Below, piece after piece: positions 3,258-27,376 of a DNA stretch of 64,000 nucleotides. Each line of letters starts with the position of its first letter. The stretch's first letter is position 1. Under the pieces are notes generated by a model. The model ran no database searches, was not told the origin of the DNA, and saw nothing but the letters and a program-made list of their open reading frames with translations. The stretch lies in NCBI RefSeq assembly GCF_900113955.1, contig NZ_FORH01000005.1, forward strand, positions 124,001 to 188,000, given 5' to 3'. The stretch is from Celeribacter neptunius (GTDB lineage: Bacteria > Pseudomonadota > Alphaproteobacteria > Rhodobacterales > Rhodobacteraceae). The position numbers were made by a program, and so were the translations under genes.

Positions 3258-6178
3258 AAGACTTTATCATTCCCTGGGAAAACGGGACCGGCATTCAGGA
3301 CGATATCGACCGGGGCACGCCGGCGAAATCCGGCAAACCGGTGACGCTGACCATCGACGGGGTGGAGGTCACCGTGCCCGAGGGCACCTCGGTGATGCGG
3401 GCGGCTTCCGAGCTGGGCATTCAGGTGCCGAAGCTCTGCGCCAGCGACAATCTCGAGGCTTTCGGCTCCTGCCGTCTTTGTGCCGTCGAAATCGAAGGGC
3501 GGCGCGGCACGCCCGCTTCCTGCACCACGCCGGTGCATAAGGGCATGAAGGTCCACACCCAGACCGACAAGCTGCGCAAGCTGCGCAAGGGCGTGATGGA
3601 GCTCTATATCTCCGATCACCCGCTTGATTGTCTGACCTGTGCCGCCAATGGCGATTGCGAATTGCAGGATATGGCGGGCGCCGTGGGCCTGCGCGATGTG
3701 CGCTATGAGGCGCCGAAAAACGCGCCCTTGGCGAACCATTTCGAGGCGCGGAACACCTCGGGCGAGGTCAATGCGGAATGGCTGCCGAAAGACGACAGCA
3801 ACCCGTATTTCACCTATGATCCGTCGAAATGCATCGTCTGCAACCGTTGTGTGCGGGCCTGCGAAGAGGTGCAGGGGACCTTTGCCCTGACCATCGAGGG
3901 CCGCGGCTTCGACAGCCGGGTCGCCGTTGGCGCGGAGAATTTCCTCGCCTCCGATTGTGTGTCCTGTGGCGCCTGTGTTCAGGCCTGCCCGACCGCGACG
4001 CTGCAAGAAAAATCGGTGATCGAGATGGGCACGCCGGACCGTTCGGTGGTGACCACCTGCGCCTATTGCGGCGTCGGCTGTAGCTTCAAGGCGGAGATGC
4101 AGGGCGATCAACTGGTCCGCATGGTGCCCTATAAACACGGCAAGGCGAACCGCGGTCATTCCTGTGTCAAAGGCAGATTTGCCTATGGATACGCCACGCA
4201 TAAGGATCGTATTTTGAGCCCGATGGTGCGCGACAGCGTCGATCAGCCATGGCGCGAGGTCTCCTGGGACGAGGCGCTGTCTTTCGCCGCCAAGAAACTC
4301 GTGGGCCTTCGGGAGAAATACGGTCAGAAGAGCATCGGCGTGATCACCTCGTCGCGTTGCACCAATGAGGAAACCTTCCTCGTCCAGAAACTCACCCGTG
4401 CGGTGTTTGGCAACAACAACACCGACACCTGTGCGCGCGTGTGCCATTCGCCGACCGGTTACGGCTTGGGCCAGACCTTTGGCACCTCGGCCGGGACACA
4501 GGATTTCGACTCGGTCGAAAAATCCGACGTCGTGGTGGTGATCGGCGCCAACCCGACGGACGGGCATCCGGTGTTTGCCTCGCGCCTGCGCAAACGTTTG
4601 CGCGAAGGCGCCAAGCTGATCGTGGTCGACCCGCGTCGCATCGATCTCTTGGAAACCCCGCATCTGGGGGAGGCGCATCACCTGCCGCTCAAACCCGGCA
4701 CCAATGTCGCCGTGGTCTCGGCGCTGGCGCATGTGATCGTGTCCGAGGGGCTCTATGACCAGACCTTTATCGCAGAGCGCTGCGATCTCGATGCCTGGGA
4801 AGATTACAAGTCCTTCATCTCGGATGAGCGCCATGCACCGGAAGCCACCGAAGCGCTCACCGGTGTTCCCGCAGCCACACTGCGCGAGGCCGCGCGCGCC
4901 TATGCGCAGGGTGGCAACGGCGCGATCTATTACGGTCTCGGTGTGACCGAACATTCGCAAGGCTCGACCACGGTCATGGCCATCGCCAATCTTGCGATGA
5001 TGACCGGCAACATCGGCCGCGAAGGCGTTGGCGTGAACCCGCTGCGCGGTCAGAACAACGTGCAGGGCTCCTGCGACATGGGCTCTTTCCCGCACGAACT
5101 GCCGGGCTATCGCCATGTGAAACTGCCGGAAGTGCGCAAGATTTTCGAAGACACCTGGGGTGTGGAGATCGACCCGGAACCGGGGCTGCGCATTCCCAAT
5201 ATGCTCGATGCCGCCGTCGATGGCACCTTCAAAGGGCTCTATTGTCAGGGCGAAGACATCCTGCAATCCGACCCGGACACCAAACATGTGGCCGCCGGCC
5301 TCGCCGCCATGGAATGCGTCATCGTGCATGATCTCTTCCTGAACGAGACGGCAAATTACGCACATGTTTTCCTGCCGGGTTCGAGCTTTCTGGAAAAAGA
5401 AGGCACGTTCACCAATGCCGAGCGCCGGATCAACCGGGTCCGCAAGGTGATGGCGCCGAAGAATGGCTACGAAGATTGGCAAGTCACCCAGATGCTCGCC
5501 AATGCGGTGTTGAAAGAGACCGGCGGCAAGCCCTGGTCCTACACTCACCCGGCCGAGGTGATGGCGGAGATCGCCGCCACCACGCCGTCTTTCGCCGGTG
5601 TCGATTACGCGCTTCTCGAAGAGAAAGGCTCCGTGCAATGGCCTTGCAACGAGGCGCAGCCCGAGGGCACGCCACTCATGCATGTCGACGGATTCGTGCG
5701 CGGCAAGGGCCGCTTTATCGTCACCGAATATATCGCCACCGATGAGCGCTCCGGCCCGCGTTTCCCGCTCCTGCTCACCACGGGACGCATCCTCAGTCAG
5801 TATAATGTCGGGGCACAGACCCGGCGGACGGAGAACTCCGTCTGGCACGATCAGGATGTGTTGGAAATCCACCCGCATGACGCCGAAAACCGTGGGCTTC
5901 GCGATGGCGATTGGGTGCGGCTCGCGTCGCGCTCCGGCGAAACCTCGCTGCGCGCCAAGATCACCGATCGGGTCAGCCCCGGCGTGGTCTACACCACCTT
6001 CCACCACCCGGATACCCAGGCCAATGTGATCACCACGGATTACTCCGACTGGGCGACCAACTGCCCGGAATACAAGGTGACGGCGGTGCAGGTCTCGCCC
6101 TCGAACGGGCCGTCGGAATGGCAGAAAGACTACGCCGCACAGGCCGAGCAATCGCGCCGGATCGAGGCCGCCGAATGA
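3254..6178 (+). CDS. fdsA: NAD-dependent formate dehydrogenase alpha (catalytic, molybdenum) subunit
   Basis: A 974-residue catalytic subunit oxidising formate to CO2. From the N-terminus: a NuoG-like [2Fe-2S] domain (CASDNLEAFGSCRLC); the His/Cys cluster motif HPLDCLTCAANGDCELQ; two [4Fe-4S] sites (CIVCNRCVRAC, CVSCGACVQACP); the Fe4S-Mo entry motif CAYCGVGC; then the bis-MGD domain. DTCARVCHSPTG near residue 392 carries a Cys-His pair expected at the Mo site of formate dehydrogenases. The start at 3254 overlaps the fdsB stop and has AGGAGG upstream. A longer in-frame opening from 3137 lies inside fdsB and was rejected. Confidence 0.96.
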   Translation: MKDFIIPWENGTGIQDDIDRGTPAKSGKPVTLTIDGVEVTVPEGTSVMRAASELGIQVPKLCASDNLEAFGSCRLCAVEIEGRRGTPASCTTPVHKGMKVHTQTDKLRKLRKGVMELYISDHPLDCLTCAANGDCELQDMAGAVGLRDVRYEAPKNAPLANHFEARNTSGEVNAEWLPKDDSNPYFTYDPSKCIVCNRCVRACEEVQGTFALTIEGRGFDSRVAVGAENFLASDCVSCGACVQACPTATLQEKSVIEMGTPDRSVVTTCAYCGVGCSFKAEMQGDQLVRMVPYKHGKANRGHSCVKGRFAYGYATHKDRILSPMVRDSVDQPWREVSWDEALSFAAKKLVGLREKYGQKSIGVITSSRCTNEETFLVQKLTRAVFGNNNTDTCARVCHSPTGYGLGQTFGTSAGTQDFDSVEKSDVVVVIGANPTDGHPVFASRLRKRLREGAKLIVVDPRRIDLLETPHLGEAHHLPLKPGTNVAVVSALAHVIVSEGLYDQTFIAERCDLDAWEDYKSFISDERHAPEATEALTGVPAATLREAARAYAQGGNGAIYYGLGVTEHSQGSTTVMAIANLAMMTGNIGREGVGVNPLRGQNNVQGSCDMGSFPHELPGYRHVKLPEVRKIFEDTWGVEIDPEPGLRIPNMLDAAVDGTFKGLYCQGEDILQSDPDTKHVAAGLAAMECVIVHDLFLNETANYAHVFLPGSSFLEKEGTFTNAERRINRVRKVMAPKNGYEDWQVTQMLANAVLKETGGKPWSYTHPAEVMAEIAATTPSFAGVDYALLEEKGSVQWPCNEAQPEGTPLMHVDGFVRGKGRFIVTEYIATDERSGPRFPLLLTTGRILSQYNVGAQTRRTENSVWHDQDVLEIHPHDAENRGLRDGDWVRLASRSGETSLRAKITDRVSPGVVYTTFHHPDTQANVITTDYSDWATNCPEYKVTAVQVSPSNGPSEWQKDYAAQAEQSRRIEAAE

Positions 6179-6909
6179 CAGCGGTGATCGACGCCCTGCC
6201 GGAAGAAGCCCCCGTCGCGCTGGTCTATAACGGCTCGACCGCGGCGGTGATGATGGCGTCGCCATTTGATCTTTCGGAGTTTTTGGTGGGGTTTGCGGTA
6301 TCGGAAGGACTCATCGACGATCCGTCTGAAGTCACGGAAATCTCCGCGATCAAGCATGCGCATGGCTATGAGGTCCGGGGCCGCATTCCGGAGGCGCGGT
6401 CGACAATGATGGACGCGCGCAGACGCGCCTCGGTCGGGCCGATGGGCTGCGGGTTGTGCGGCATCGAAAGCCTTGAGCAGGCCACGGCCTTTCCGGGCAG
6501 GGTGGCGCCGATGGCGGTGGGGCTCGAGGGGGACGCGCGCTCGGCCTTGGAGGCGTTGAACGCTGGGCAGAAGCGCCGCGATCAGGTCGGTGCGATGCAT
6601 GCCGCCGGGTTCTTTACCAAGGACGGGCTGATCGCGCTGCGCGAAGACGTCGGGCGGCACAACGCGCTCGACAAGTTGATCGGGGCGCTGAGCGGAACGG
6701 ATGTGAGCGGCGGCGCGGTGATCATCACCTCGCGGCTCTCCGTCGATCTGGTGCAGAAATGCGCCCGGGCCGGGATCTCCGGCCTGTTCGCGCTCTCCAG
6801 CCCGACCCGCGCGGCGGTGGAGCTGGCGCGGGAGACCGGAATGACCTTGATGGTGCTGCGCCGCGAGGCGGTGGTGGCCTATACGGATGAGAAGGAAGAT
6901 TGCGCATGA
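6175..6909 (+). CDS. fdhD: FdhD/FdsC sulfurtransferase-type formate dehydrogenase maturation protein
   Basis: A 244-residue FdhD-family accessory protein, called FdsC in fds operons. In this family it moves sulfur onto the Mo-bis-MGD cofactor and chaperones it into the catalytic subunit. The CxxC loop is present as GPMGCGLCG near residue 95. The start overlaps the fdsA stop (ATGA), and its own stop overlaps fdsD in the same way, so all five fds genes are translationally coupled. Confidence 0.93.
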   Translation: MTAVIDALPEEAPVALVYNGSTAAVMMASPFDLSEFLVGFAVSEGLIDDPSEVTEISAIKHAHGYEVRGRIPEARSTMMDARRRASVGPMGCGLCGIESLEQATAFPGRVAPMAVGLEGDARSALEALNAGQKRRDQVGAMHAAGFFTKDGLIALREDVGRHNALDKLIGALSGTDVSGGAVIITSRLSVDLVQKCARAGISGLFALSSPTRAAVELARETGMTLMVLRREAVVAYTDEKEDCA

Positions 6910-7181: not shown

Positions 7182-9566
7182 TCAGGAACGCGGGCGTTCC
7201 TTTTTCGGATCGTAATGCGGGAAGGGGGCGACGCGGGCGGAATAGCGTTTCAGATGCCCGTCGAGTTGGCCGACCTCGACCGCTGTGCCAAGCTCTGCAT
7301 GCGCCACGTCGACGCGGGCGAGGGCGATCCACTGACCGGTGCGGGGAGACCGCATGGCGGAGCAGATCTCGCCCACCTGCGCGCGCCCGATGCGGATGCA
7401 ATCGCCGTGCGCCACGGCATTCTGACCGTCGATCTCAAGGCCCACGAATTTGCGCGATGGCGTTTCCTTACGGCGCAGCAGAGCGTCACGACCGACGAAA
7501 TCGGCGGTCTTGGATTTCAGCGGTACGGTGAAGCCGACGCCGGCCTCGAACGGATCGGTTTGATCGGAGAAATCATAGCCTGCGAACACCAGCCCGGCTT
7601 CGATGCGCACCAGATCCAGAGCGGCGAGGCCCATGGGTTTCATGCCGACCTTCTGACCTGCCTCCCAGACCGCTTTGAAAATCTCCGCGCCATGTTTCGG
7701 ATGACAGAAAATCTCATAGCCCAGCTCGCCGGTGTAGCCGGTGCGCGAGATCACCACGGGGATGCCCTCGTGATCGCCGAGACGCGCGGGGGTGAAGCGG
7801 AACCATCCCATCTCCATCAAATCGGGATGATGCGGTGCAGTCCAAAACAGATCATTGATCAAATCACGCGACTTCGGCCCCTGGACGGCGAGGTTGTGCA
7901 TCTGATCGGTGGAGGAGCGGATCATGACGTTGAGGCCAAGGCGCCTGGCCTCTTCGCGCATCCAGACGCCGCCCTCGTCCGAGCCACCGATCCAGCGGAA
8001 ATTATGCTCGCCCAGACGGAACAGGGTGCCGTCGTCGATCATGCCGCCGTGCGGGTAACACATGGCGGAATAGACCACCTGACCAATGGCGAGTTTTTCG
8101 ACATTGCGGGTCAGGACCCAGTTCATCAACGCTTCGGCATCGGGGCCGGTGACCTCGAATTTGCGCAGCGCCGAGAGGTCCATGACCACCACGCCCTCGC
8201 GACAGGCCCAGTAGCTTTCCACGGGATCGCATTCCGGGAAAGAGTTCGGCAGCCAGAACCCGTTATAATCGGCAAAGTCGCGGGTCATCGTGGCAAAGGA
8301 ATCGTAAAAACCGCTTTCACGCGTCATGATCGGATCCTCGTCAGGGGTCGGGCGCCAGGCGGTGGCGCGGGAGAAACGTTCCTCGGCGCCGTAGGTGCGC
8401 AGATGGATGTCGGTGAGGTGCCAGCCATTGGCGGCGGAGGTGTCATCGGGACAGGATGAGGACACGCAGATGAGATCGGTCAAAGCGCGCAGGAGCACAT
8501 AGTCGCCGGGCCGCGACCACGGCTCATCGGCCAGCATCACGCCATGTTCGTCGATCGCGGTGTTGAAAAAGAAATTCGCCGCCATCCAGCCGGGGCGGGC
8601 GGGAATGCCGTAAGGGTCGAGCACCGCGTTGAAATTGTCGGAACAATTGACGTGACCGGGATAGCCGATGTCGTCGTAATATTTGGCATTACAGGCGAGA
8701 CCAAAAGCGTCGTGGCGACCGCAGGTGTCTTGGACGACCTCGACCAAAGGCGTCAGGTCATGATCGAAGTACTTCGCGTGCAGACCCGGCATCGGATAGG
8801 CGTGGCCCTGGATCGTGCGGGTGGTGGTGACGTCGAGCGGGTGGAAAATGCCCTTGTCCACCTTGCGTGCATCGAAGCACTGGAAATCGGTGCATTGGCG
8901 GCCATCGACATCCATGATCTGGATGAATTCACCCTTCCTGACCCGGTAGGCCTGCGCCGTCGCCGAGGCGACGCGGATCTCCTGCAGCGGATCGGCGAGC
9001 GGGTCGGGCAGGGCGAAGGCCCCTGCGAGACGGGCCTCGGCGCGGGTGATCAGCACGGTGAGCGGCGTGGCGGTGGTCTGCGCCTCGAAATCCGGCTCGG
9101 GCGCGGGTGCGGTGACAAGGACCCAGCCCGCCGCCTGTGCGGTGAAACTCACGCCTTCGCCCGCCGCGCTCGTGCCGGAGAACAGGCCGATGACCTTGGC
9201 ACCGGCAAGCGCGATGCCGCGTTTGGCGAGGCCGAGGCGCAGCCGCGCCATGCCCGGCAGCGTGCTGTCCAATGTGGCGCGCAGGCCCTCGCCCGGGCTG
9301 TCGGCGGACCAGCCGAGCACGCCCGCGTCGACACGCCCGTCGAGATGCGCGGCCAGCATTTCGCAACGCTGACCGCCTTCGGTGTTGGTCACGGTGATCC
9401 GGTCGCCCGGTTTCAGCTCCAGAAGCGCTGCCCCGCCGCCTTGCACGGTATGACGTTCCTCGTTGGGGGCGAGCCGATAGGCGCCGGCGCGCCGCGGCTG
9501 GGACGCCAGAGGGGCGCCGGATCGGAAAGGCAGGCCAGAAGGATCTAGGATCACTGGAAACTCCAT
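7182..9566 (-). CDS. tdm: Trimethylamine-N-oxide demethylase (TMAO aldolase)
   Basis: A 794-residue two-part protein. The N-terminal half, with YRVRKGEFIQIMDVDGRQC and HVNCSDNFNAVL, is the DUF1989-type metal-binding catalytic part. The C-terminal half, from about residue 420, is a GcvT-like tetrahydrofolate-binding module (YEIFCHPKHGAEIFKAVWE, MGLAALDLVRIEAGL). Tdm cleaves TMAO to dimethylamine and formaldehyde; the folate module can capture the formaldehyde. The ATG at 9566 begins MEFPVILDPSGLPF. No good Shine-Dalgarno precedes it, only a T-rich tract that is the tail of a hairpin. It lies downstream of tmm on the same strand, as expected for consecutive steps. Confidence 0.92.
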   Translation of the reverse strand: MEFPVILDPSGLPFRSGAPLASQPRRAGAYRLAPNEERHTVQGGGAALLELKPGDRITVTNTEGGQRCEMLAAHLDGRVDAGVLGWSADSPGEGLRATLDSTLPGMARLRLGLAKRGIALAGAKVIGLFSGTSAAGEGVSFTAQAAGWVLVTAPAPEPDFEAQTTATPLTVLITRAEARLAGAFALPDPLADPLQEIRVASATAQAYRVRKGEFIQIMDVDGRQCTDFQCFDARKVDKGIFHPLDVTTTRTIQGHAYPMPGLHAKYFDHDLTPLVEVVQDTCGRHDAFGLACNAKYYDDIGYPGHVNCSDNFNAVLDPYGIPARPGWMAANFFFNTAIDEHGVMLADEPWSRPGDYVLLRALTDLICVSSSCPDDTSAANGWHLTDIHLRTYGAEERFSRATAWRPTPDEDPIMTRESGFYDSFATMTRDFADYNGFWLPNSFPECDPVESYWACREGVVVMDLSALRKFEVTGPDAEALMNWVLTRNVEKLAIGQVVYSAMCYPHGGMIDDGTLFRLGEHNFRWIGGSDEGGVWMREEARRLGLNVMIRSSTDQMHNLAVQGPKSRDLINDLFWTAPHHPDLMEMGWFRFTPARLGDHEGIPVVISRTGYTGELGYEIFCHPKHGAEIFKAVWEAGQKVGMKPMGLAALDLVRIEAGLVFAGYDFSDQTDPFEAGVGFTVPLKSKTADFVGRDALLRRKETPSRKFVGLEIDGQNAVAHGDCIRIGRAQVGEICSAMRSPRTGQWIALARVDVAHAELGTAVEVGQLDGHLKRYSARVAPFPHYDPKKERPRS

Positions 9567-9577
9567 CGCTGAAGAAG

Positions 9578-9611
9578 AAAAAAATCCGGGGGCACACAAA
9601 GTCCCCCGGAT
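9578..9611 (-). terminator. Intrinsic terminator or attenuator between tmm and tdm
   Basis: On the minus strand a perfect 9-bp stem, ATCCGGGGG / CCCCCGGAT with a 10-nt loop, runs into seven Ts and ends only 11 nt before the tdm ATG. Co-transcription from tmm would have to pass it. Confidence 0.75.
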
Positions 9612-9664
9612 CAGGGGAGAAGAGGCACGCCCGGCCTCTTGGCGCCGGGCGTACTCGTCAGGGA

Positions 9665-11008
9665 TCAGTTCTGCAAATAGGCTTCCATGCTGTCGTCCAG
9701 CGCGTCTTTCCACGGTGTGTGATGCACGGGGGCCATGGTGCCGGTGATCACCGATTTGTAGCAATTGTTGCGGAAAGCCATGATGTCCTTGGCCTTGTGT
9801 TTCTTCCATTCGAAGAAGGCCTCGCAGGCGCCGTCGATGTCAAACGACGGGTAATCGGTCTCGGCCACCAGTTCCTTGACGTACTCGGCCTGATATTTGA
9901 TCGCGTATTTCACATCGTCATCGGCCTCTTCGCGGGCGACGCGCTCGGCGACATCGGCATCGAGCACGGCCTTGTTGGTCGGAACCTCGATCCGGCCGAG
10001 GATGATGTCACGCACATACCAGGCCTGGGCGTCGAACATGTTGAAGGTGAACCACTGGTCCTGCATGCCGAGATAGAAGAGTTTCGGATTGGGGGTATAG
10101 ACCACGCCCTTGTAGAGATCGGCGGTCGCCAGACGGTTGGCGGTCTTGAGCCGCAGATCGTCGGGCAGGAAGGGGAAATAGTGCTTGTAGCCGGTGCACA
10201 GGATGATCGCATCGACATCCTTGGTGGTGCCGTCCTTGAAATACACGGTCTTGCCCTCGACACGTTCGAGCGCCGGTTTTTCTTCCCAGTTGTCGGGCCA
10301 GTTGAAACCCATGGGGGCGGAGCGGTAGCAGCTGGTGATCGATTTGGCACCGTATTTCCAGCATTGCGAGCCGATGTCCTCGGCGGAGTAGGACGAGCCC
10401 ATCACCAGCACATCCTTGCCTTCGAACTCGCGGGCGTCGCGGAAATCATGGGCGTGAACGATGCGGCCGTTGAACTGCGCAAATCCTGGATATTCCGGTA
10501 CGTTGGGCGAGGAGAAGTGACCGGAGGCGATGATCACATTGTCAAAGCGTTCCTTGTAGACCGTGTCCTTTTCCATGTCGTGTACGGTGATTTCGAAATC
10601 GCCCTTCTCGGCGTCATATTCGACCCAGCGGATCACCGAAGAGAAACGGATCCATTTGCGCACGTCGGCCTTTTTTACCCGGCCCTCGATATAGTCGAAG
10701 AGCACGGCGCGCGGCGGGTAGGAGGCGATCTGTTTGCCGAAATGTTCCTCAAAGGAATAGTCGGCAAACTCCAGCCCCTCTTTCGGACCGTTGGACCAGA
10801 GGTAACGATACATCGAGCCATGTACGGGCTCGCCATTCTCATCGACGCCGGTGCGCCAAGTGTAATTCCACAGCCCGCCCCAGTTCGACTGTTTCTCGAA
10901 GCAGACGACTTCCGGGATCTCGGCGCCCTGGGCGGCGGCGGATTGGAAGGCGCGAAGCTGGGCGAGGCCGGAAGGGCCCGCGCCGATGACGGCGACTCGT
11001 TTGGTCAT
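9665..11008 (-). CDS. tmm: Trimethylamine monooxygenase (bacterial flavin-containing monooxygenase)
   Basis: A 447-residue FMO. The FAD Rossmann motif is GAGPSG at residues 9-14. The FMO fingerprint F-x-G-x3-H-x3-F is present as [11 protein letters not shown] near residue 180, and the NADPH motif is [10 protein letters not shown] near 206. Length and motifs match the marine bacterial Tmm clade, which turns trimethylamine into TMAO with NADPH and O2; some members also oxidise dimethyl sulfide. Its place immediately upstream of tdm supports the assignment. An ATG at 11008 with GGGAGTT upstream starts [11 protein letters not shown]. It is divergent from the LivJ-like gene, and the shared gap holds operator-like dyads. 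Confidence 0.93.
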
Positions 11009-11078
11009 GGATGGAACTCCCGTTGGTTGTTGGTGTTTTCGTGTGATCCGTTTTCAGATCAGTCTGTGCGTTGCGTTC

Positions 11079-11107
11079 TGGTATGGACCAATATTTGTAA
11101 TTGGTTC
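11079..11107. promoter_or_regulatory. FadR/GntR-type operator-like dyads upstream of tmm
   Basis: TGGTATGGACCAAT (11079-11092) has TGGT/ACCA half-sites. GGACCAAT (11085-11092) forms a second inverted repeat with ATTGGTTCC (11099-11107). A further TGGTCC lies near 11128. The half-sites match those near gntR and amt. The site is 71-99 bp upstream of the tmm ATG and about 125-150 bp upstream of the divergent gene. Confidence 0.45.
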
Positions 11108-11172
11108 CTTTTGATTTGCTCCGGTATGGTCCAAAAATTTTCTGGTGGTCAACGAATTTTCTTTAGAGGAAT

Positions 11173-11220
11173 ATGAGATTCACCGAACAGGAGATGGTTT
11201 TGTCCCAATATTGGGCGTGA
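11173..11220 (+). CDS. Possible 15-codon leader peptide before the LivJ-like gene
   Basis: ATG at 11173 follows AGAGGAAT and reads MRFTEQEMVLSQYWA, then TGA, ending 9 nt before the next start codon. The ribosome-site spacing is short and there is no comparison available, so this is only a candidate. Confidence 0.2.
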   Translation: MRFTEQEMVLSQYWA

Positions 11221-11229
11221 GGTTAAAAA

Positions 11230-12516
11230 ATGAGCACAGACTCCTTGGCGCAAAGGCTGGCCGTCGCGGGATCGCTGCCGCGGTTGAGCGTGCAGGACCG
11301 GGCGCCCATTCGCATTGGCGCATTGGTGCCCTTGTCTGGGCCGGAAGAGCCCTGGGGCCGACCGGGGGTCGAGGGCTGTCAGATCTGGGTCGACTGGATC
11401 AATGCCCATGGCGGTATGATGGTTGGCGGGCGGCGGCATCTGGTGGAGCTCTCGGTCACCGATTGCGCCGGCGGCGCCGAGGCGACACTCGAGGCGGCGC
11501 GCCAGATGGTCGAGACCCAGCGGGTGCGGCTGGTGCTGACATTGGGCGGCAGCGACATGGCGCTGGCGCTGCCCTATCTGATGAGCCGCCGTATCCTGAC
11601 CGCGACGCTTCTGCCCTCGGATCTTTCACCCGATGCGCCCTATCTGATCGCGCCGGCGGAGGTGCATCCGTTTTTCAATGTTACCGGGGTCGACTGGCTG
11701 ACCCGGCAGCGCCCGGAGGCGAGGCGCGTGGCGCTCTGTTCCCAGACCGACCTTCTGGGCCTGCCGTCACTGGCCACCTACCGGGCGGCTTTCGATGTCG
11801 CCGGGCGCGAGGTGGTGCAAGAGGTGCTCTATGATCCGGAGGCGGGGGATGCCCGGCGGATCGTGGCGGAGATGCTCGAGAGCGCGCCGGATATCCTCTG
11901 CTGGTGCTCCTCGGCACCGGCGATGATCGAGGAGCTGACCGTTGCCGCCTATGAGATGGGGTTTCAGGGCGAGATCCTCGCCTGTACCTGTGACCATTAT
12001 CCCCGGATGATCGCGCGGACCTCGCCAGACTTTATGGAGCGGTTCACCTTTCAATTCCCGGATTTCGACGATGCGGACCTAGCCGAAACGGCGTTTTTCT
12101 TTCGCCGGCCCAAGGCGTTCTTCGACACTTATAATGAGCGCTATCCGGAGCATTGGACCGCGGTAAGCTGGGAATATGCGTCGATCCTTGATCTCTGGCA
12201 TGAGGCGGTGGAGACCGCGGACAGTCTCGCGACCGCCTCCGTCCTCGTGGCGCTCAAACGCGGCCGCAAGATGCCGCATGCGTTCGGTCTGGCCTCGTGG
12301 TGGGGCACCGAGGTCTACGGTATCGACAATGCGCTGGTTGGCGATTGGCCGGTGGTGGCGATCCGCGACGGCAAGGCGCAGATCCAGGAATTCGGGTCGG
12401 TGCTGGCCTGGCTTGAGACACATGGCGGCCGGTTGATGCAGGAGCTTGGCGCTCTGGGTCAGCTCTGGCATCAGCGCGGCAAGGCCGATTGGGCGCGCGC
12501 GCTGGCCCGGGGCTGA
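11230..12516 (+). CDS. LivJ/AmiC-like periplasmic-binding-fold protein without signal peptide
   Basis: A 428-residue protein of the Peripla_BP_6 (branched-chain amino acid/amide binding) fold. It opens with IRIGALVPLSGPEEPWGRPGVEG at about residues 27-49, followed by LVLTLGGSDMALALPYL and the second lobe near 150-350. The first 26 residues (starting MSTDSLAQRLAVAG) contain no hydrophobic signal core or lipobox, and no ABC permease or ATPase gene is adjacent. Known relatives without export signals include AmiC, a cytosolic amide sensor that controls a transcription antiterminator. An intracellular sensor role for a methylated amine is inferred from divergence from tmm-tdm and from the downstream XRE gene 31 bp away. 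GAGG precedes the ATG. Confidence 0.75.
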   Translation: MSTDSLAQRLAVAGSLPRLSVQDRAPIRIGALVPLSGPEEPWGRPGVEGCQIWVDWINAHGGMMVGGRRHLVELSVTDCAGGAEATLEAARQMVETQRVRLVLTLGGSDMALALPYLMSRRILTATLLPSDLSPDAPYLIAPAEVHPFFNVTGVDWLTRQRPEARRVALCSQTDLLGLPSLATYRAAFDVAGREVVQEVLYDPEAGDARRIVAEMLESAPDILCWCSSAPAMIEELTVAAYEMGFQGEILACTCDHYPRMIARTSPDFMERFTFQFPDFDDADLAETAFFFRRPKAFFDTYNERYPEHWTAVSWEYASILDLWHEAVETADSLATASVLVALKRGRKMPHAFGLASWWGTEVYGIDNALVGDWPVVAIRDGKAQIQEFGSVLAWLETHGGRLMQELGALGQLWHQRGKADWARALARG

Positions 12517-12547
12517 GGTCGCAGGAACACGGGAGTTATAGAGACGG

Positions 12548-13216
12548 ATGAATAAGACGGTGACGACAGGAGAGATGGATTTGAAAGCCAATGAAGAGGC
12601 GCTGCGGCAGAACCCGCATGCGGTGAAGGAACAGCGGGAAAAGAATCTCGAAGTGGCGATCGGGCGACAGGTGCGCGAGCTGCGCAAGCGCCAGCGCCTT
12701 ACCGGTGCCGATCTGGCGGCGCAGACCGGGCTGTCGGTCGGCATGCTCTCGAAAATCGAGAACGGGGTGATCTCGCCCTCGCTCAACACCATCTCGGTCC
12801 TGGCGCATGCGCTGCGGGTGCCGCTGGTGCAGCTGTTTTCCGGCTATGAGGAAGAGCGCGGCTGCATGCATGTGAAAGCTGGCGAAGGGGTCGAGATCGA
12901 ACGCGCCGGCACCCGGGCCGGGCATCAGTATAATCTTCTGGGCCATATCGGCTCGAACAACTCGGGCGTGGTGGTCGAACCCTATCTGATCACATTGGAT
13001 GACGCCTCGCACCGGTTCCCGGCGTTTCAGCACGAGGGGATCGAGCTTTTGTACATGCTCGAGGGCACGGTGAATTACCGCCATGGCGATCAGACCTATC
13101 TGCTGGAGCCGGGGGATTCGCTTCTCTTCGATTCCGATGCGCCGCACGGGCCGGAGGAAATTGTCGAACTGCCGGCGAAATACCTGTCGGTGATCACCTA
13201 TCCGCAGGCGCGCTGA
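12548..13216 (+). CDS. XRE-family regulator with C-terminal cupin domain
   Basis: A 222-residue regulator. The HTH_3 domain covers about residues 35-95 (IGRQVRELRKRQRLTGADLAA, LSVGMLSKIENG). A cupin sensor covers about 140-220 (HEGIELLYMLEGTVNYRHGD, LEPGDSLLFDSDAPHG). It probably forms an operon with the LivJ-like gene. XRE-cupin proteins often control amine or amino-acid catabolism; the cupin is expected to sense a small ligand. The target is unknown; nearby tmm/tdm and the downstream mgs operon are the candidates. Confidence 0.88.
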   Translation: MNKTVTTGEMDLKANEEALRQNPHAVKEQREKNLEVAIGRQVRELRKRQRLTGADLAAQTGLSVGMLSKIENGVISPSLNTISVLAHALRVPLVQLFSGYEEERGCMHVKAGEGVEIERAGTRAGHQYNLLGHIGSNNSGVVVEPYLITLDDASHRFPAFQHEGIELLYMLEGTVNYRHGDQTYLLEPGDSLLFDSDAPHGPEEIVELPAKYLSVITYPQAR

Positions 13217-13440: not shown

Positions 13441-14331
13441 ATGTGTGGCATCGTAGGCCTGTTCCTGAAAAAGGACGAAATGCGCCCGCAGCTGGGCGAT
13501 CTGCTGACGGATATGCTCATCACCATGACCGACCGTGGCCCGGACAGTGCCGGGATCGCGATCTATGGTGACGAGGCCGAAGGCTCTGTGAAAATCACCG
13601 TGCAATCCGACACGCCGGCCGAGGCCTTCGCGGATCTCGACGCTGCCGTCTGTGCCGCGATCGACGCGCCGGTGGAGATCAAGGTTGTCGATACCCATGC
13701 GGTTCTGACCCTGCCCGAGGCGAAAGAGGCCGAGGCCATCGCTTTCCTTGAGGAAAAGGGTCTGCGGATCATGGGCTCCGGCGCCTCGATGGAAATCTAC
13801 AAAGAGGTCGGCCTGCCGAAGGACGTCGCGGCCCGTTTCGGTCTGCGCGCGATGGGCGGCTCCCATGGCATCGGGCACACCCGCATGGCGACCGAGTCGG
13901 CCGTGACCACCATGGGCGCTCACCCGTTCTCCACCGCCGATGACCAGTGCCTGGTGCACAACGGCTCGTTGTCGAATCACAACCAGATGCGTCGCAAGCT
14001 CGCGAAAAAGGGCGTCTTCACCCGGTCCGAGAACGACACGGAAGTGGGCGCGGCCTATATTTCCTCGCGCATTGCCGAAGGGGCATCGCTTGGCGAAGCG
14101 CTCGAAGGCACGCTCGAGGATCTCGACGGGTTCTTCACCTTTGTCACCGGCACCAAGAACGGGTTCGGCGTGGTGCGCGACCCGATCGCCTGCAAGCCGG
14201 CCGTGATGGCCGAGACCGAGGATTACGTCGCTTTCGCCTCCGAATACCGCGCCTTTGCCGATCTGCCCGGCATCGAGACCGCGCGTGTCTGGGAGCCGGA
14301 ACCCGCAACTGTTTATTTCTGGGAGCGCTGA
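13441..14331 (+). CDS. mgsA: N-methylglutamate synthase subunit A (class II glutamine amidotransferase-like, GlxB)
   Basis: A 296-residue class II glutamine amidotransferase domain. The Cys immediately after Met (MCGIVGLF) is the N-terminal nucleophile of this family, which fixes the start at 13441 behind GGAGG. Conserved segments GIGHTRMATES and DQCLVHNGSLSNH follow. With MgsB and MgsC it corresponds to the three domains of glutamate synthase split into separate proteins, here making N-methylglutamate from methylamine-derived nitrogen. First gene of mgsABC-gmaS. Confidence 0.9.
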   Translation: MCGIVGLFLKKDEMRPQLGDLLTDMLITMTDRGPDSAGIAIYGDEAEGSVKITVQSDTPAEAFADLDAAVCAAIDAPVEIKVVDTHAVLTLPEAKEAEAIAFLEEKGLRIMGSGASMEIYKEVGLPKDVAARFGLRAMGGSHGIGHTRMATESAVTTMGAHPFSTADDQCLVHNGSLSNHNQMRRKLAKKGVFTRSENDTEVGAAYISSRIAEGASLGEALEGTLEDLDGFFTFVTGTKNGFGVVRDPIACKPAVMAETEDYVAFASEYRAFADLPGIETARVWEPEPATVYFWER

Positions 14332-14334
14332 GAT

Positions 14335-15033
14335 ATGGCGAAAGATATGGCCACCACGCTTGATATGGCGACCACCGAGCTGCGCGAGGTGAACTCGACG
14401 CTGCAAGCCGCCGCCAAATCCAAGGCAAACGAGCAATATGTCATCACCAATGCCCGCGGCAGCCACGCCATGGCCTGTGGTCTCGATGGCCCGCTCAATG
14501 TCGTGGTGAAAGGGTCCACCGGCTACTATTGCGCCGGCATGAACAAGGAAGCCACGGTGACGGTCGAAGGCTCTGCCGGTCCGGGTGTTGCCGAAAACAT
14601 GATGTCCGGTGTCGTCACCATCGAAGGCGACGCCAGCCAATATGCCGGCGCGACCGGTCATGGCGGACTTTTGAACATCAAGGGCAATGCCTCCTCGCGC
14701 TGCGGCATTTCGATGAAAGGCATCGATATCGTCGTCCATGGCAACATCGGCCACATGTCCGCCTTCATGGCGCAAAAGGGCAATCTCGTTGTCTTGGGCG
14801 ATGCCGGCGATGCGCTGGGCGACTCGCTCTATGAAGCGCGTCTGTTCGTGCGCGGCAATGTGAAATCGCTGGGCGCCGACTGCATCGAGAAAGAGATGCG
14901 TCCGGAGCATCTCGAGATCCTCAAGGAGCTGCTCGAGAAAGCCGGCGCCGACGCCAAGCCGGAAGAGTTCAAGCGCTACGGCTCGGCCCGCAAGCTCTAT
15001 AATTTCAACATCGATCACGCCGACGAATACTGA
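14335..15033 (+). CDS. mgsB: N-methylglutamate synthase subunit B (GXGXG domain, GlxC)
   Basis: A 232-residue protein of the glutamate-synthase alpha C-terminal (GXGXG) beta-helix domain. Repeating glycine-rich turns are visible, such as VKGSTGYYCAGMN, TVEGSAGPGVAENM and YAGATGHGGLLNIKG. It has no catalytic residues of its own in this family and is structural, probably organising the ammonia or amine channel between MgsA and MgsC. It starts 3 nt after the mgsA stop. Confidence 0.9.
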   Translation: MAKDMATTLDMATTELREVNSTLQAAAKSKANEQYVITNARGSHAMACGLDGPLNVVVKGSTGYYCAGMNKEATVTVEGSAGPGVAENMMSGVVTIEGDASQYAGATGHGGLLNIKGNASSRCGISMKGIDIVVHGNIGHMSAFMAQKGNLVVLGDAGDALGDSLYEARLFVRGNVKSLGADCIEKEMRPEHLEILKELLEKAGADAKPEEFKRYGSARKLYNFNIDHADEY

Positions 15034-15043
15034 GGAGCGCGAT

Positions 15044-16369
15044 ATGGACAAGACACCTATGACTGAGCCGCGCCAGAGCTGGACCTTCTCCAACTCGATC
15101 AACTCGGAAATCCGTCGTGCTGCCGACACCGGCATCTACGACATCCGGGGCGGGGGCGCGAAACGCCGCGTGCCGCATTTCGACGACCTGCTGTTCCTCG
15201 GCGCCTCGATGTCGCGCTACCCGCTCGAAGGTTATCGCGAGAAATGCGACACCTCGGTCACCCTCGGCACGCGGTTCGCGAAAAAGCCGATCGAGCTGAA
15301 AATCCCGGTGACCATCGCCGGCATGTCCTTTGGCGCGCTTTCGGGCCACGCCAAAGAGGCTCTGGGTCGCGGCGCCTCCATGGCGGGGACCTCGACCACC
15401 ACCGGTGACGGCGGTATGACCGAGGAAGAGCGCGGCCATTCCGAAAAACTGGTCTACCAATACCTGCCGTCGCGCTACGGTATGAACCCGGACGACCTGC
15501 GCCGTGCCGATGCCATCGAGATCGTGGTGGGTCAGGGCGCGAAACCGGGCGGTGGCGGCATGCTGCTGGGTCAGAAGATCACCGAACGCGTCGCCGGCAT
15601 GCGCGACCTGCCGGTGGGCATCGACCAACGCTCCGCCTGTCGTCACCCGGACTGGACCGGCCCGGATGATCTCGAGATCAAGATCCTCGAGATCCGCGAA
15701 ATCACCAATTGGGAAAAGCCGATCTACATCAAGGTTGGCGGCGCGCGGCCTTACTATGACGTCGCTCTGGCCTGTAAGGCGGGCGCCGATGTGATCGTCC
15801 TCGACGGGATGCAGGGCGGCACGGCGGCAACCCAGGACGTGTTCATCGAACATGTCGGTCAGCCGACGCTGGCCTGTATCCGCCCCGCCGTTCAGGCGCT
15901 TCAGGATCTGGGCCTGCACCGCGAAGTGCAGCTCATCGTCTCCGGCGGTATCCGCACCGGCGCCGATGTGGCGAAAGCTCTGGCGCTTGGCGCCGACGCA
16001 GTGGCCATCGGCACCGCCGCTCTGGTTGCTCTGGGCGACAATGACCCGAAATGGGAATCCGAGTACAACAAACTCGGCACCACCACGGGCGCCTATGACG
16101 ACTGGCATGAGGGCCGCGACCCGGCGGGCATCACCACCCAGGATGTGGAGCTGATGAAGCGCCTCGATCCGGAAGTGGCGGGCCGCAAGCTGCGCAACTA
16201 CCTCAATGTGCTGACGCTGGAATGCCAGACGCTCGCACGCGCCTGTGGTCACAACCATGTCCACAACCTTGAGCCGGAAGATCTCTGTGCGCTGACCATG
16301 GAGGCCGCTGCCATGGCACAAGTTCCGCTTGCGGGGACCAACTGGTACCCGGGCAAGCCGGGCTTCTGA
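15044..16369 (+). CDS. mgsC: N-methylglutamate synthase subunit C (FMN glutamate-synthase-like, GlxD)
   Basis: A 441-residue protein matching the FMN-binding central domain of glutamate synthase. The TIM-barrel motifs are present (GMSFGALSGHAKEALGRGA, GTSTTTGDGGM, VLDGMQGGTAATQDVF, ADAVAIGTAAL). A Cys-rich tail (CQTLARACGHNHVH) occupies the place of the Fe-S cluster region. This subunit should catalyse the reductive transfer forming N-methylglutamate. GAGGAGCG precedes the ATG. Confidence 0.9.
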   Translation: MDKTPMTEPRQSWTFSNSINSEIRRAADTGIYDIRGGGAKRRVPHFDDLLFLGASMSRYPLEGYREKCDTSVTLGTRFAKKPIELKIPVTIAGMSFGALSGHAKEALGRGASMAGTSTTTGDGGMTEEERGHSEKLVYQYLPSRYGMNPDDLRRADAIEIVVGQGAKPGGGGMLLGQKITERVAGMRDLPVGIDQRSACRHPDWTGPDDLEIKILEIREITNWEKPIYIKVGGARPYYDVALACKAGADVIVLDGMQGGTAATQDVFIEHVGQPTLACIRPAVQALQDLGLHREVQLIVSGGIRTGADVAKALALGADAVAIGTAALVALGDNDPKWESEYNKLGTTTGAYDDWHEGRDPAGITTQDVELMKRLDPEVAGRKLRNYLNVLTLECQTLARACGHNHVHNLEPEDLCALTMEAAAMAQVPLAGTNWYPGKPGF

Positions 16370-17773: not shown

Positions 17774-18751
17774 TCAGGCTTTCGCTGTCCCAGACGGGTC
17801 CGGTTCGCGCCGGGCCCGTTTTTTGCGCAGCTCGGAGGGCGCGATGCCGTGGGTCTTGCGGAACGCGTCGGAGAAATGCGCCTGTGAGGAAAACCCGGTC
17901 ATCTGGGCGATTTCCGCGAGTGAGAGCCGGGTCGAACTGATCAGGTCCTTGCCGGTCTCGAGGCGGATGCGGCGGTATTCCTCCATCACCGAATGGCCCA
18001 GCCCCTCGCGGAACTGGCGTTGTAATTGCCGGGTCGAGAGGCCCGAAAGCGTGGCGATTTGGTCCTGATCCAAGGGATCGGCGATATGGCTTTCCATCAG
18101 CTCCAGCGCGGCCTCGACCGCGCGCGGCAGGGCGCCATAGCGGGAATGCAGCGACGTCCGCTGCGGCGCTTCGGCGCCACGCACCTCGGTCTGGATGAAC
18201 CAGTCCGAGATCCGCCCGGCAAACCGTGTGCCGTGATCGCGGGCGATGATCGCATGCATCATGTCGAGGGGCGCGGAACCGCCGGCGCAGGTGTAGCGGT
18301 CGCGGTCGATGACGAAGAGTTTGCGCTCCAGCAGCCAGGGGCCGGGCAGGCGTTCGAAATCATCGTAATGGTGCCAGTGCACGGTGAAACGCCGGTCCTG
18401 CAACAGCCCGGCTCGGGCGAGAATGACCGCGCCGCCGGAGATGCCGCCGAGGGCGCAGCCATTGCGGTCCGCCTGTCTGAGCCAGGAGAACAGCGCCGGG
18501 TCGGTGATGCGTGCCGGATTGCCGCCCGCAACCACGAAGATCATGTCGTAAAGCGGCAGGGCATCGCGGTAAAACCGCCCGTCGAACCGGGCGCCGAGAG
18601 AGGCGGTGGATGTCGTGCCGCTGTGCGACAGCAGGGTCACGTCATAGGGCATCTCGGGGGCAAAGACATTGGCGGCGCGCAAGGGCTCGAGCGCGGCGGC
18701 CGTCGAGAGCAGCGCGAAATCGTCGATCAGCAGAAAGGCGATTCTCCGCAT
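17774..18751 (-). CDS. GlxA/AraC-family regulator (GATase1-like sensor plus HTH)
   Basis: A 325-residue regulator with an N-terminal DJ-1/PfpI (class I glutamine amidotransferase-like) domain (about residues 1-195, with AGGNPARI and GGISGGAVILARAG) and a C-terminal AraC HTH (about 225-310, ATLSGLSTRQLQRQFREGL, SLAEIAQMTGFSSQAHFSDAF). This is the GbdR/GlxA architecture that often senses quaternary or methylated amines. It is divergent from mgdA and convergent with gmaS, so it likely controls one or both. A 21-bp direct repeat sits at its own promoter. Its 3' end carries the gmaS terminator within codons. Confidence 0.92.
   Translation of the reverse strand: MRRIAFLLIDDFALLSTAAALEPLRAANVFAPEMPYDVTLLSHSGTTSTASLGARFDGRFYRDALPLYDMIFVVAGGNPARITDPALFSWLRQADRNGCALGGISGGAVILARAGLLQDRRFTVHWHHYDDFERLPGPWLLERKLFVIDRDRYTCAGGSAPLDMMHAIIARDHGTRFAGRISDWFIQTEVRGAEAPQRTSLHSRYGALPRAVEAALELMESHIADPLDQDQIATLSGLSTRQLQRQFREGLGHSVMEEYRRIRLETGKDLISSTRLSLAEIAQMTGFSSQAHFSDAFRKTHGIAPSELRKKRARREPDPSGTAKA
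17794..17824 (+). terminator. gmaS terminator embedded in the convergent regulator gene
   Basis: ACGGGTCCGG / CCGGGCCCGT (10 bp with one wobble), loop TTCGCG, followed by five to six Ts on the plus strand. It lies inside the final codons of the convergent GlxA/AraC gene. Confidence 0.8.
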
Positions 18752-26191: not shown

Positions 26192-26914
26192 GTGCCCAAT
26201 TCCCCACTTTCCTCAACTCAACCCGGCCAGAGCTCCCTGCCGGGGGCGACCGTGAAATATGTGATCGAAACGCTGTCGACGCGGATCGTGACCCAGGAAT
26301 ATGCCACCGAAGAGCGCCTGCCCTCGGAGCGGCAGCTGGCGCAGGAACTGGGTGTGGCGCGCAACACGGTGCGCGAGGCTCTGGATCAGCTCGAGACCCG
26401 CGGCATGATCCGTCGGCGCGCCGGTGCCGGGTCCTTTGTCACCTATAATCCCGATGGCAATGGCGCGGCGCTTTCGCCCGTGGCCTCCGAGACCGGGCCG
26501 CTGCAATTGCAGGTGATGCGCGGCATTCTGGAACCCGAAATGGTGCGTCTTGCGATCGTCAACATGTCGCCGCGGCAGATCGAAGCGCTTTCCACCGTGC
26601 TCTCCAGAATGGAGGGGGTGCAGGCCGATGCCAGCGCCTTTATGCGGCTCGAGGAAGAATTCCACCGTTTGATTGCCGAGGGCACCGGCAATCCGCTTTT
26701 GGTGGCTTGTTACAATCTGGTGCTCGACGCCCGGCGCCAGGCCTTTCGCAGCGCCATGTATCGGCGGCACATGACCCCGGCCCGGATCGAGATCTATCAG
26801 CGCGGTTATAACGGTCTGTTCAATGCGATCGCGGCGCGGGACATCGAAGAGGCCTCGGAATTCATGAAGCTCGCCCTGATCGAGGATCAGCGCCTGTTGC
26901 TTCAGGAAGACTGA
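26192..26914 (+). CDS. FadR-subfamily GntR regulator (FCD domain)
   Basis: A 240-residue GntR regulator. The winged HTH is at about residues 20-85 (LPSERQLAQELGVARNTVREALDQLETRGM) and the all-helical FCD ligand domain at about 105-225, with the metal-site pattern around EEEFHRLIAEGTGN. FadR-subfamily operators usually have TGGT/ACCA half-sites, and such dyads lie in its own promoter, upstream of amt and upstream of tmm. The start is GTG at 26192 with AAGGAC upstream. It probably controls the dmm/amt segment; the ligand is unknown. Confidence 0.92.
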   Translation: MPNSPLSSTQPGQSSLPGATVKYVIETLSTRIVTQEYATEERLPSERQLAQELGVARNTVREALDQLETRGMIRRRAGAGSFVTYNPDGNGAALSPVASETGPLQLQVMRGILEPEMVRLAIVNMSPRQIEALSTVLSRMEGVQADASAFMRLEEEFHRLIAEGTGNPLLVACYNLVLDARRQAFRSAMYRRHMTPARIEIYQRGYNGLFNAIAARDIEEASEFMKLALIEDQRLLLQED

Positions 26915-27360: not shown

Positions 27361-27376
27361 AATTGGTCCGAACCAA
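27361..27376. promoter_or_regulatory. GntR-type operator-like site close to amt
   Basis: AATTGGTCCGAACCAA has TTGGT/ACCAA half-sites separated by four bases, 55 bp before the preferred amt start. A repressor bound here would be placed at or just after a promoter. Confidence 0.5.

Follow-up and report, generated by a model that had tools for sequence, protein, structure and literature searches.

A Peripla_BP_6 protein encoded beside tmm as a candidate cytosolic methylated-amine sensor associated with the repressor TmoR

In the sea, trimethylamine (TMA) is described as being used primarily through its oxidation by Tmm (PMC13390433). The stretch of Celeribacter neptunius DNA analyzed here (64 kb, hereafter the window) contains tmm and, divergent from it, a gene for a protein of the Peripla_BP_6 family, which raises the question of what a relative of importer binding proteins does at such a place and with which partner it works. 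The sequence-only reading of this locus took the protein for a cytosolic amine sensor and paired it with the XRE-cupin regulator encoded next to it. Below, the protein and its relatives of the same kind are referred to as class A, and an exported sister class as class B. The relevant features of the window are as follows:

7182-9809, minus strand: tdm, trimethylamine N-oxide demethylase, start codon uncertain (DUF1989, GCV_T, GCV_T_C; named from its neighbourhood)
9665-11008, minus strand: tmm, trimethylamine monooxygenase (NCBIfam NF058570, 841 bits, cut-off 675)
11009-11229: divergent tmm/class A intergenic region, 221 bp
11079-11090: TGGTATGGACCA, candidate TmoR operator (TGGTN4ACCA), with an extra TGGT half-site 11 bp on, at 11102-11105
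11230-12516, plus strand: class A protein, Peripla_BP_6 (LivJ/AmiC fold), 428 aa (Pfam E 5.3e-43 over residues 26-380); proposed cytosolic methylated-amine sensor
12548-13216, plus strand: XRE-cupin regulator, 222 aa (HTH_3 E 1.5e-12, Cupin_2 E 2.8e-12), heading mgsABC-gmaS
13441-16369, plus strand: mgsABC, N-methylglutamate synthase subunits (GATase_6, GXGXG, Glu_synthase; names in part from PMC13390433)
16432-17748, plus strand: gmaS-type glutamine-synthetase-like ligase (TIGR03105, 666 bits)
17774-18751, minus strand: AraC-type regulator (DJ-1_PfpI and HTH_18), probable TmaR orthologue by comparison with excerpts of PMC13390433
26192-26914, plus strand: TmoR orthologue, a GntR/FCD repressor (GntR and FCD domains)

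The open reading frames and their Pfam and NCBIfam matches bear out the layout given earlier, with a 428-aa Peripla_BP_6 protein divergent from tmm and, after a gap of 31 bp on the same strand, the XRE-cupin regulator. The longest tdm reading frame runs 145 bases into tmm, and its real start is probably further in. Farther along the window lie folD-like and purU-like genes, the GntR/FCD gene at 26192-26914, an ammonium transporter gene and dimethylamine monooxygenase genes. Among the 17 other genes scanned around the class A gene (7.2-18.8 kb and 23.3-33.3 kb), none matched an ABC-importer permease or ATPase, in agreement with the claim that the protein has no ABC partners, and none matched the ANTAR family; the sister class, in turn, serves a Liv-type importer as its binding protein.

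The class A gene is present in a single copy in its genome. In an alignment of 24 sequences, each from a different genus, columns are on average 69% identical, so the gene is a maintained one. An AlphaFold2 model of the protein (mean pLDDT 88.1, pTM 0.86; pLDDT below 50 at residues 1-4 and 12-23) was compared with solved structures using VIA-align. The closest ones are Liv-, aromatic-acid- and urea-type binding proteins, with 4eyg at the top (Z 34.7) and AmiC included (1pea, Z 33.0, rmsd 3.3 over 348 residues, 16% identity; AmiC-AmiR complex 1qo0, Z 32.6). The likeness to AmiC proposed earlier is thus real and is shared with numerous other binding proteins; since many matches are nearly tied, the fold identifies a binding protein and not AmiC specifically. 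Membership in the urea-type Peripla_BP_5 family was ruled out by a score below the cut-off.

The absence of a signal sequence, also claimed from the letters alone, was examined in 80 class A proteins, the best 80 of 433 relatives, whose loci are called named loci below. A twin-arginine-type motif in its loose form ([RK]R-x-hydrophobic-hydrophobic within the first 30 residues) is present in 0 of these 80 class A proteins and in 14 of the 14 class B proteins from the same loci. For Sec signals we relied on inspection by eye and on hydropathy. The N-terminal motif common to class A, roughly M-x-x-S-S-F-A-x-R-L-A-V-x-x-x-L-P-R-L, shows to the eye neither a charged n-region nor an AxA site. N-terminal hydropathy does not separate class A from class B, and, as it does not tell Tat signals apart, its use as proof of location was dropped. 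We therefore infer the location from the motifs, and on this basis class A is very probably cytosolic. That it is instead exported by an unusual signal and serves an orphan ABC importer would agree with an N-terminal hydropathy near the lower range of Tat signals, but the count of 0/80 (best 80 of 433) against 14/14 and the missing n-region and AxA site make this reading highly improbable.

Conservation of the locus was followed in the named loci (best 80 of 433), in a family sample of 394 genomes and in a class-wide draw of 385 genomes; the first two samples have at least six loci in common (L070, L087, L098, L100, L104 and L140). Class A is present in 24 of the 394 family genomes, the window's included, at 48-83% identity in the others, and the class-wide draw adds one more (G550), located between tmm and a TmoR relative. 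The expectation of conservation beside tmm holds for class A taken alone: tmm is divergent to it in 72 of the best 80 of 433 loci, where 151-197 bp separate the two genes (221 bp in the window), and in 21 of the 24 family genomes, the exceptions being G246, where the locus is cut by a contig end, G275, where tmm is elsewhere, and G064, which is without tmm. Six of the best 80 of 433 loci have no tmm in reach, and five of these have it elsewhere in the genome. Conversely, tmm is found in 81 of the 394 family genomes, and 58 of these 81 are without class A. The family draw includes one further member of the window's genus, G260, which has neither tmm nor class A (best match 26% identity).

We considered whether class A could sense amines and signal to the XRE-cupin protein 31 bp downstream within one operon with mgsABC-gmaS. 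Both genes lie on the same strand and adjoin each other in 17 of the best 80 of 433 loci, none of which has TmoR as a neighbour, and in one locus (L031) their reading frames overlap by 4 bp. The adjacency is missing, however, in the other 63 of these 80 loci and is found in 3 of the 24 family genomes with class A. XRE-cupin matches at E up to 1e-30 occur in 128 of the 394 family genomes versus 24 for class A, and in 14 of the 20 best-matching XRE-cupin loci away from class A the gene is directly upstream of mgsABC-gmaS (in the other six it is downstream of these genes once, and they are out of reach in five, one of them at a contig end). The genes mgsC and gmaS also follow in all 17 XRE-adjacent class A loci (best 80 of 433), and 16 of the 17 genomes concerned have kept TmoR. 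Adjacency, distribution and operon context speak against the proposed partnership, and signalling from class A to the XRE-cupin protein is improbable. Judged by gene order, the class A/XRE-cupin pair marks the place where one module, tmm|class A, meets another, XRE-mgsABC-gmaS, in one genus group (Celeribacter, Salipiger, Shimia and others). The XRE-cupin protein may be a local regulator of mgsABC-gmaS. It resembles PuuR (E 3.7e-13, below the cut-off), and mgsABC-gmaS forms a gamma-glutamyl amide, as does the Puu pathway.

A different companion of class A emerged from the same loci. TmoR of Ruegeria pomeroyi is a GntR repressor of tmm, and tmoR is usually near tmm, with one gene of no assigned function between them in the excerpted account (PMC13390433). 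Among the best 80 of 433 relatives, class A occupies this middle place in most, and SPO1552 of R. pomeroyi may be a class A protein. The window departs from this arrangement, its TmoR gene being 13.7 kb from class A and about 15 kb from tmm. In the named loci, a TmoR-type GntR gene is convergent with and adjacent to class A in 59 of 80 (best 80 of 433) and about 2 kb off in one more; by an approximate measure, the 3' ends of the two genes overlap in 35 of the 59 adjacent loci. At the level of genomes, TmoR is present in 79 of the 80 (best 80 of 433): where the fetched locus lacks TmoR (20 genomes), all but one encode it at another place, with 76-92% identity to the TmoR of the window, and the sole genome without it, G783, is a MAG. 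In the family sample of 394 genomes, those with TmoR of at least 53% identity (53-100%) and those with class A of at least 50% identity are the same 22 genomes. The next match (40%, in G275) is encoded convergently beside that genome's class A gene, and G064 likewise has a convergent GntR gene beside class A (class A identity 48-49% in G275 and G064). Since at most seven GntR candidates were scored per genome in the family search, and the class A-adjacent GntR of G064 fell outside that set, the absences of TmoR are not firm.

In a tree of the tmm sequences of 80 of the 81 genomes (the tmm of G246 was left out, and G275 was scored as without class A, which is not beside its tmm), the presence of class A beside tmm switches five times or more. 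As the set of genomes with TmoR is the same, TmoR changes state together with class A. An independent-pairs sign test gave 5/5 (p 0.0625) with TmoR states taken as equal to those of class A; because they were set from identical genome sets, it is a restatement of the co-occurrence and no separate test. Part of this co-occurrence is explained by joint transfer, as the two genes mostly lie side by side; the retention of TmoR in 19 of the 20 genomes where it is out of reach of class A (best 80 of 433) is a counterweight.

Divergence was compared by a distance test on 70 distinct loci, drawn from 74 that each contain a single TmoR and a single near-full-length tmm. A locus whose genome encodes TmoR at another place was left out; the exception is the window, as both genes lie within its 64 kb. 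The distances among class A proteins and those among TmoR proteins are correlated with r 0.82, and the partial correlation given tmm is 0.80 (0.71 in the closer group of 22 loci and 0.78 in the farther group of 48). The plain correlation was reached in 0 of 2000 permutations in each set. With TmoR accounted for, the partial correlation between class A and tmm is -0.04 over the 70 loci, 0.46 in the closer 22 and 0.10 in the farther 48. These values bear on the suggestion that class A has no regulatory task and acts as a cytosolic amine buffer or as a supplier of TMA to Tmm. Such a role would suit the divergent arrangement with tmm that 72 of the best 80 of 433 loci show, but the divergence of class A follows TmoR above tmm, 58 of the 81 tmm-bearing family genomes do without class A, and in two of the 24 family genomes with class A a dehydrogenase and a GntR gene replace the adjacent tmm. 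Weakened by these observations, the buffer or delivery role is unlikely. Because class A keeps company with TmoR and changes in step with it, it is probably an amine sensor of the trimethylamine oxidation pathway, and comparison of the sequences makes a functional tie between the two proteins quite likely.

The intergenic region between tmm and class A offers a place where TmoR might act. After dereplication, 71 tmm|class A regions were left; the palindrome TGGTN4ACCA is present in 44 of them, with 0.45 expected from 20 shuffles, and ACCAN11TGGT, which corresponds to a tandem arrangement, in 41, with 0.25 expected. Among all 93 such regions, at least one is present in 79. As the palindrome was chosen as the most enriched among many dyads and the shuffles are approximate, the fairer control is the comparison of tmm upstream regions, where it is found in 14 of 21 with class A beside tmm versus 1 of 59 without (G275, whose class A is away from its tmm, is counted among the 59). 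In regions between tmoR and class B the palindrome is present in 1 of 17 and absent in 16, and no copy was detected next to the class A genes of L051 and L052. The TGGTN4ACCA shape is one that FadR-like GntR proteins bind, and we infer that the palindrome is the site of TmoR. The window contains four exact copies, one of them at 27364-27375, 55 bp upstream of 27431, where the ammonium transporter gene that comes after tmoR probably starts. This copy is possibly a second TmoR target or, given four exact copies in the window, a matter of chance.

Clues to the ligand come from genomes with another TMA-degrading enzyme. In G275 and G064 (2 of the 24 family genomes with class A), class A and the GntR gene are located beside trimethylamine-dehydrogenase genes and not beside tmm; one of the dehydrogenase copies of G275 scores 1314 bits to PDB 1djn. 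In G275 (locus L051), the class A and GntR genes lie between two dehydrogenase-like genes (4434-6632 and 10794-13016) and tmm is elsewhere, while in G064 no tmm was detected at E 1e-60. Trimethylamine N-oxide (TMAO) is no intermediate of the trimethylamine dehydrogenase route, and therefore TMA or dimethylamine (DMA) fits both settings. The dehydrogenase context comes from two genomes, since 0 of the best 80 of 433 loci have a trimethylamine dehydrogenase gene within their flanks. A counterexample is Paracoccus acridae (L109), in which class A and TmoR are kept, with neither tmm nor trimethylamine dehydrogenase detected at E 1e-60. Judged by the gene neighbourhoods as a whole, the ligand of class A is likely a methylated amine, and the importer contexts of class B point to methylated amines too.

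Class B consists of Tat-exported Peripla_BP_6 proteins with 42-48% identity to the window's class A, found in 12 loci of the 394 family genomes. Eleven of the 12 match the strict twin-arginine pattern and the twelfth has KR. Most class B genes are followed by genes for a Liv-type permease and ATPase, livH coming after class B in relatives; it is in the Tat signal and in these permease and ATPase genes that class B differs from class A. In-frame stops that appeared in class B matches turned out to be ordinary stop codons passed by the alignment.

In the class-wide draw, eight of 19 class B-type loci adjoin tmm, five are near a trimethylamine-dehydrogenase-like gene, three are near a tdm-like gene only, and three (two on contigs of about 6 kb) are near none of these. 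In the family sample, four of the 12 loci follow a tmm-class A-tmoR cluster, two adjoin tmm, one is near the dehydrogenase gene, one is near mgs/gmaS genes and four are near none of tmm, dehydrogenase or mgs-gmaS. Class B with Liv-type permease and ATPase genes adjoins tmm in L231-L234, L236-L238, L240, L196 and L197, and a trimethylamine-dehydrogenase-like gene in L052, L227, L228, L235, L239 and L243. In some loci, a protein of about 217 aa, with no NCBIfam match, is encoded after the importer genes (L041, 15515-16168). By its gene context, class B is a candidate binding protein of a methylated-amine ABC importer; TmaT, the TMA transporter already known, belongs to the BCCT carriers (PMC11708041), and a search of titles and abstracts in the openly licensed literature returned nothing on a Liv-type methylated-amine importer.

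Columns of the two classes were compared at 90% conservation using 66 class A rows, some of them repeated, and 12 class B rows. At 107 positions the residue is conserved and identical in both classes, and at 15 it is conserved in each but different. Five of the latter are at 225-232, at or after the end of a strand. In LivJ-type proteins, the loop at this place touches the ligand, and the ligand of class A may thus be related to that of class B and not the same.

Taken together, the reading that we prefer, with somewhat more confidence than doubt, is that class A is a cytosolic sensor of methylated amines, most likely TMA or DMA, which is kin to importer binding proteins, has no Tat signal and works with TmoR and not with the XRE-cupin protein. 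Ligand-free class A would keep TmoR active as a repressor of both tmm and the class A gene, and binding of an amine to class A would release the repression. The opposite sign, with ligand-bound class A as an anti-repressor, is about as likely. By analogy with known sensor-effector pairs, a direct, ligand-controlled contact between class A and TmoR has an even chance of being correct.

Points against this model are that TmoR has an FCD domain of its own, that class A and tmoR are convergent and do not form an operon, and that in the closer 22 loci class A correlates with tmm too when TmoR is given. TmoR might sense amines through its FCD domain, with class A serving a separate task such as sensing for the sister ABC importer; the order tmm, class A, tmoR, class B importer seen in several loci would suit such a task. 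FCD domains usually bind metal through His, yet none of the TmoR columns has a His in more than 77% of the 81 sequences aligned. The response of R. pomeroyi TmoR to DMA and TMAO was inferred from transcripts in blocked mutants, data that can be explained without a partner, and the excerpted account names none; the portion of TmoR that was purified is the DNA-binding part alone (PMC13390433). Because the effectors come from mutants, the purified part is the DNA-binding one and no His column exceeds 77%, we propose class A as the sensor and TmoR as the effector. Sensing by TmoR alone also leaves aside its co-occurrence and correlated divergence with class A, and we regard it as possible though doubtful.

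The proposed arrangement has precedents. AmiC of Pseudomonas aeruginosa, a sensor of small amides, has, like class A, a type I periplasmic-binding-protein fold, and NasS of Paracoccus denitrificans is predicted to be what class A would be, a sensor in the cytosol that is kin to the binding protein of a transporter and devoid of its export signal (PMC3795266). The differences lie in the ligands and partners: NasS is NrtA-like, binds nitrate and works with the ANTAR protein NasT (PMC3795266). The partner of AmiC, AmiR, is likewise an ANTAR antiterminator, whereas the candidate partner of class A is a GntR/FCD DNA-binding repressor. The idea of class A as a cytosolic amine sensor appears well founded in the comparisons made here. 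More tentatively, and a little short of an even chance, class A and TmoR would form a two-protein module in which a cytosolic transporter-type binding protein senses TMA or DMA and controls a GntR/FCD repressor, a module used with the unrelated enzymes Tmm and trimethylamine dehydrogenase and alongside a sister Liv-type importer of methylated amines. Neither module nor importer is described in the literature searched, and the search of openly licensed titles and abstracts returned nothing on a cytosolic binding protein acting with TmoR.

The gene between tmm and tmoR, which has no assigned function in the excerpted account (PMC13390433), thereby gains a testable role, and a candidate methylated-amine ABC importer, that of class B, is named. 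If the model is true, the principle known from AmiC and NasS would extend from RNA antiterminators to a DNA-binding repressor.
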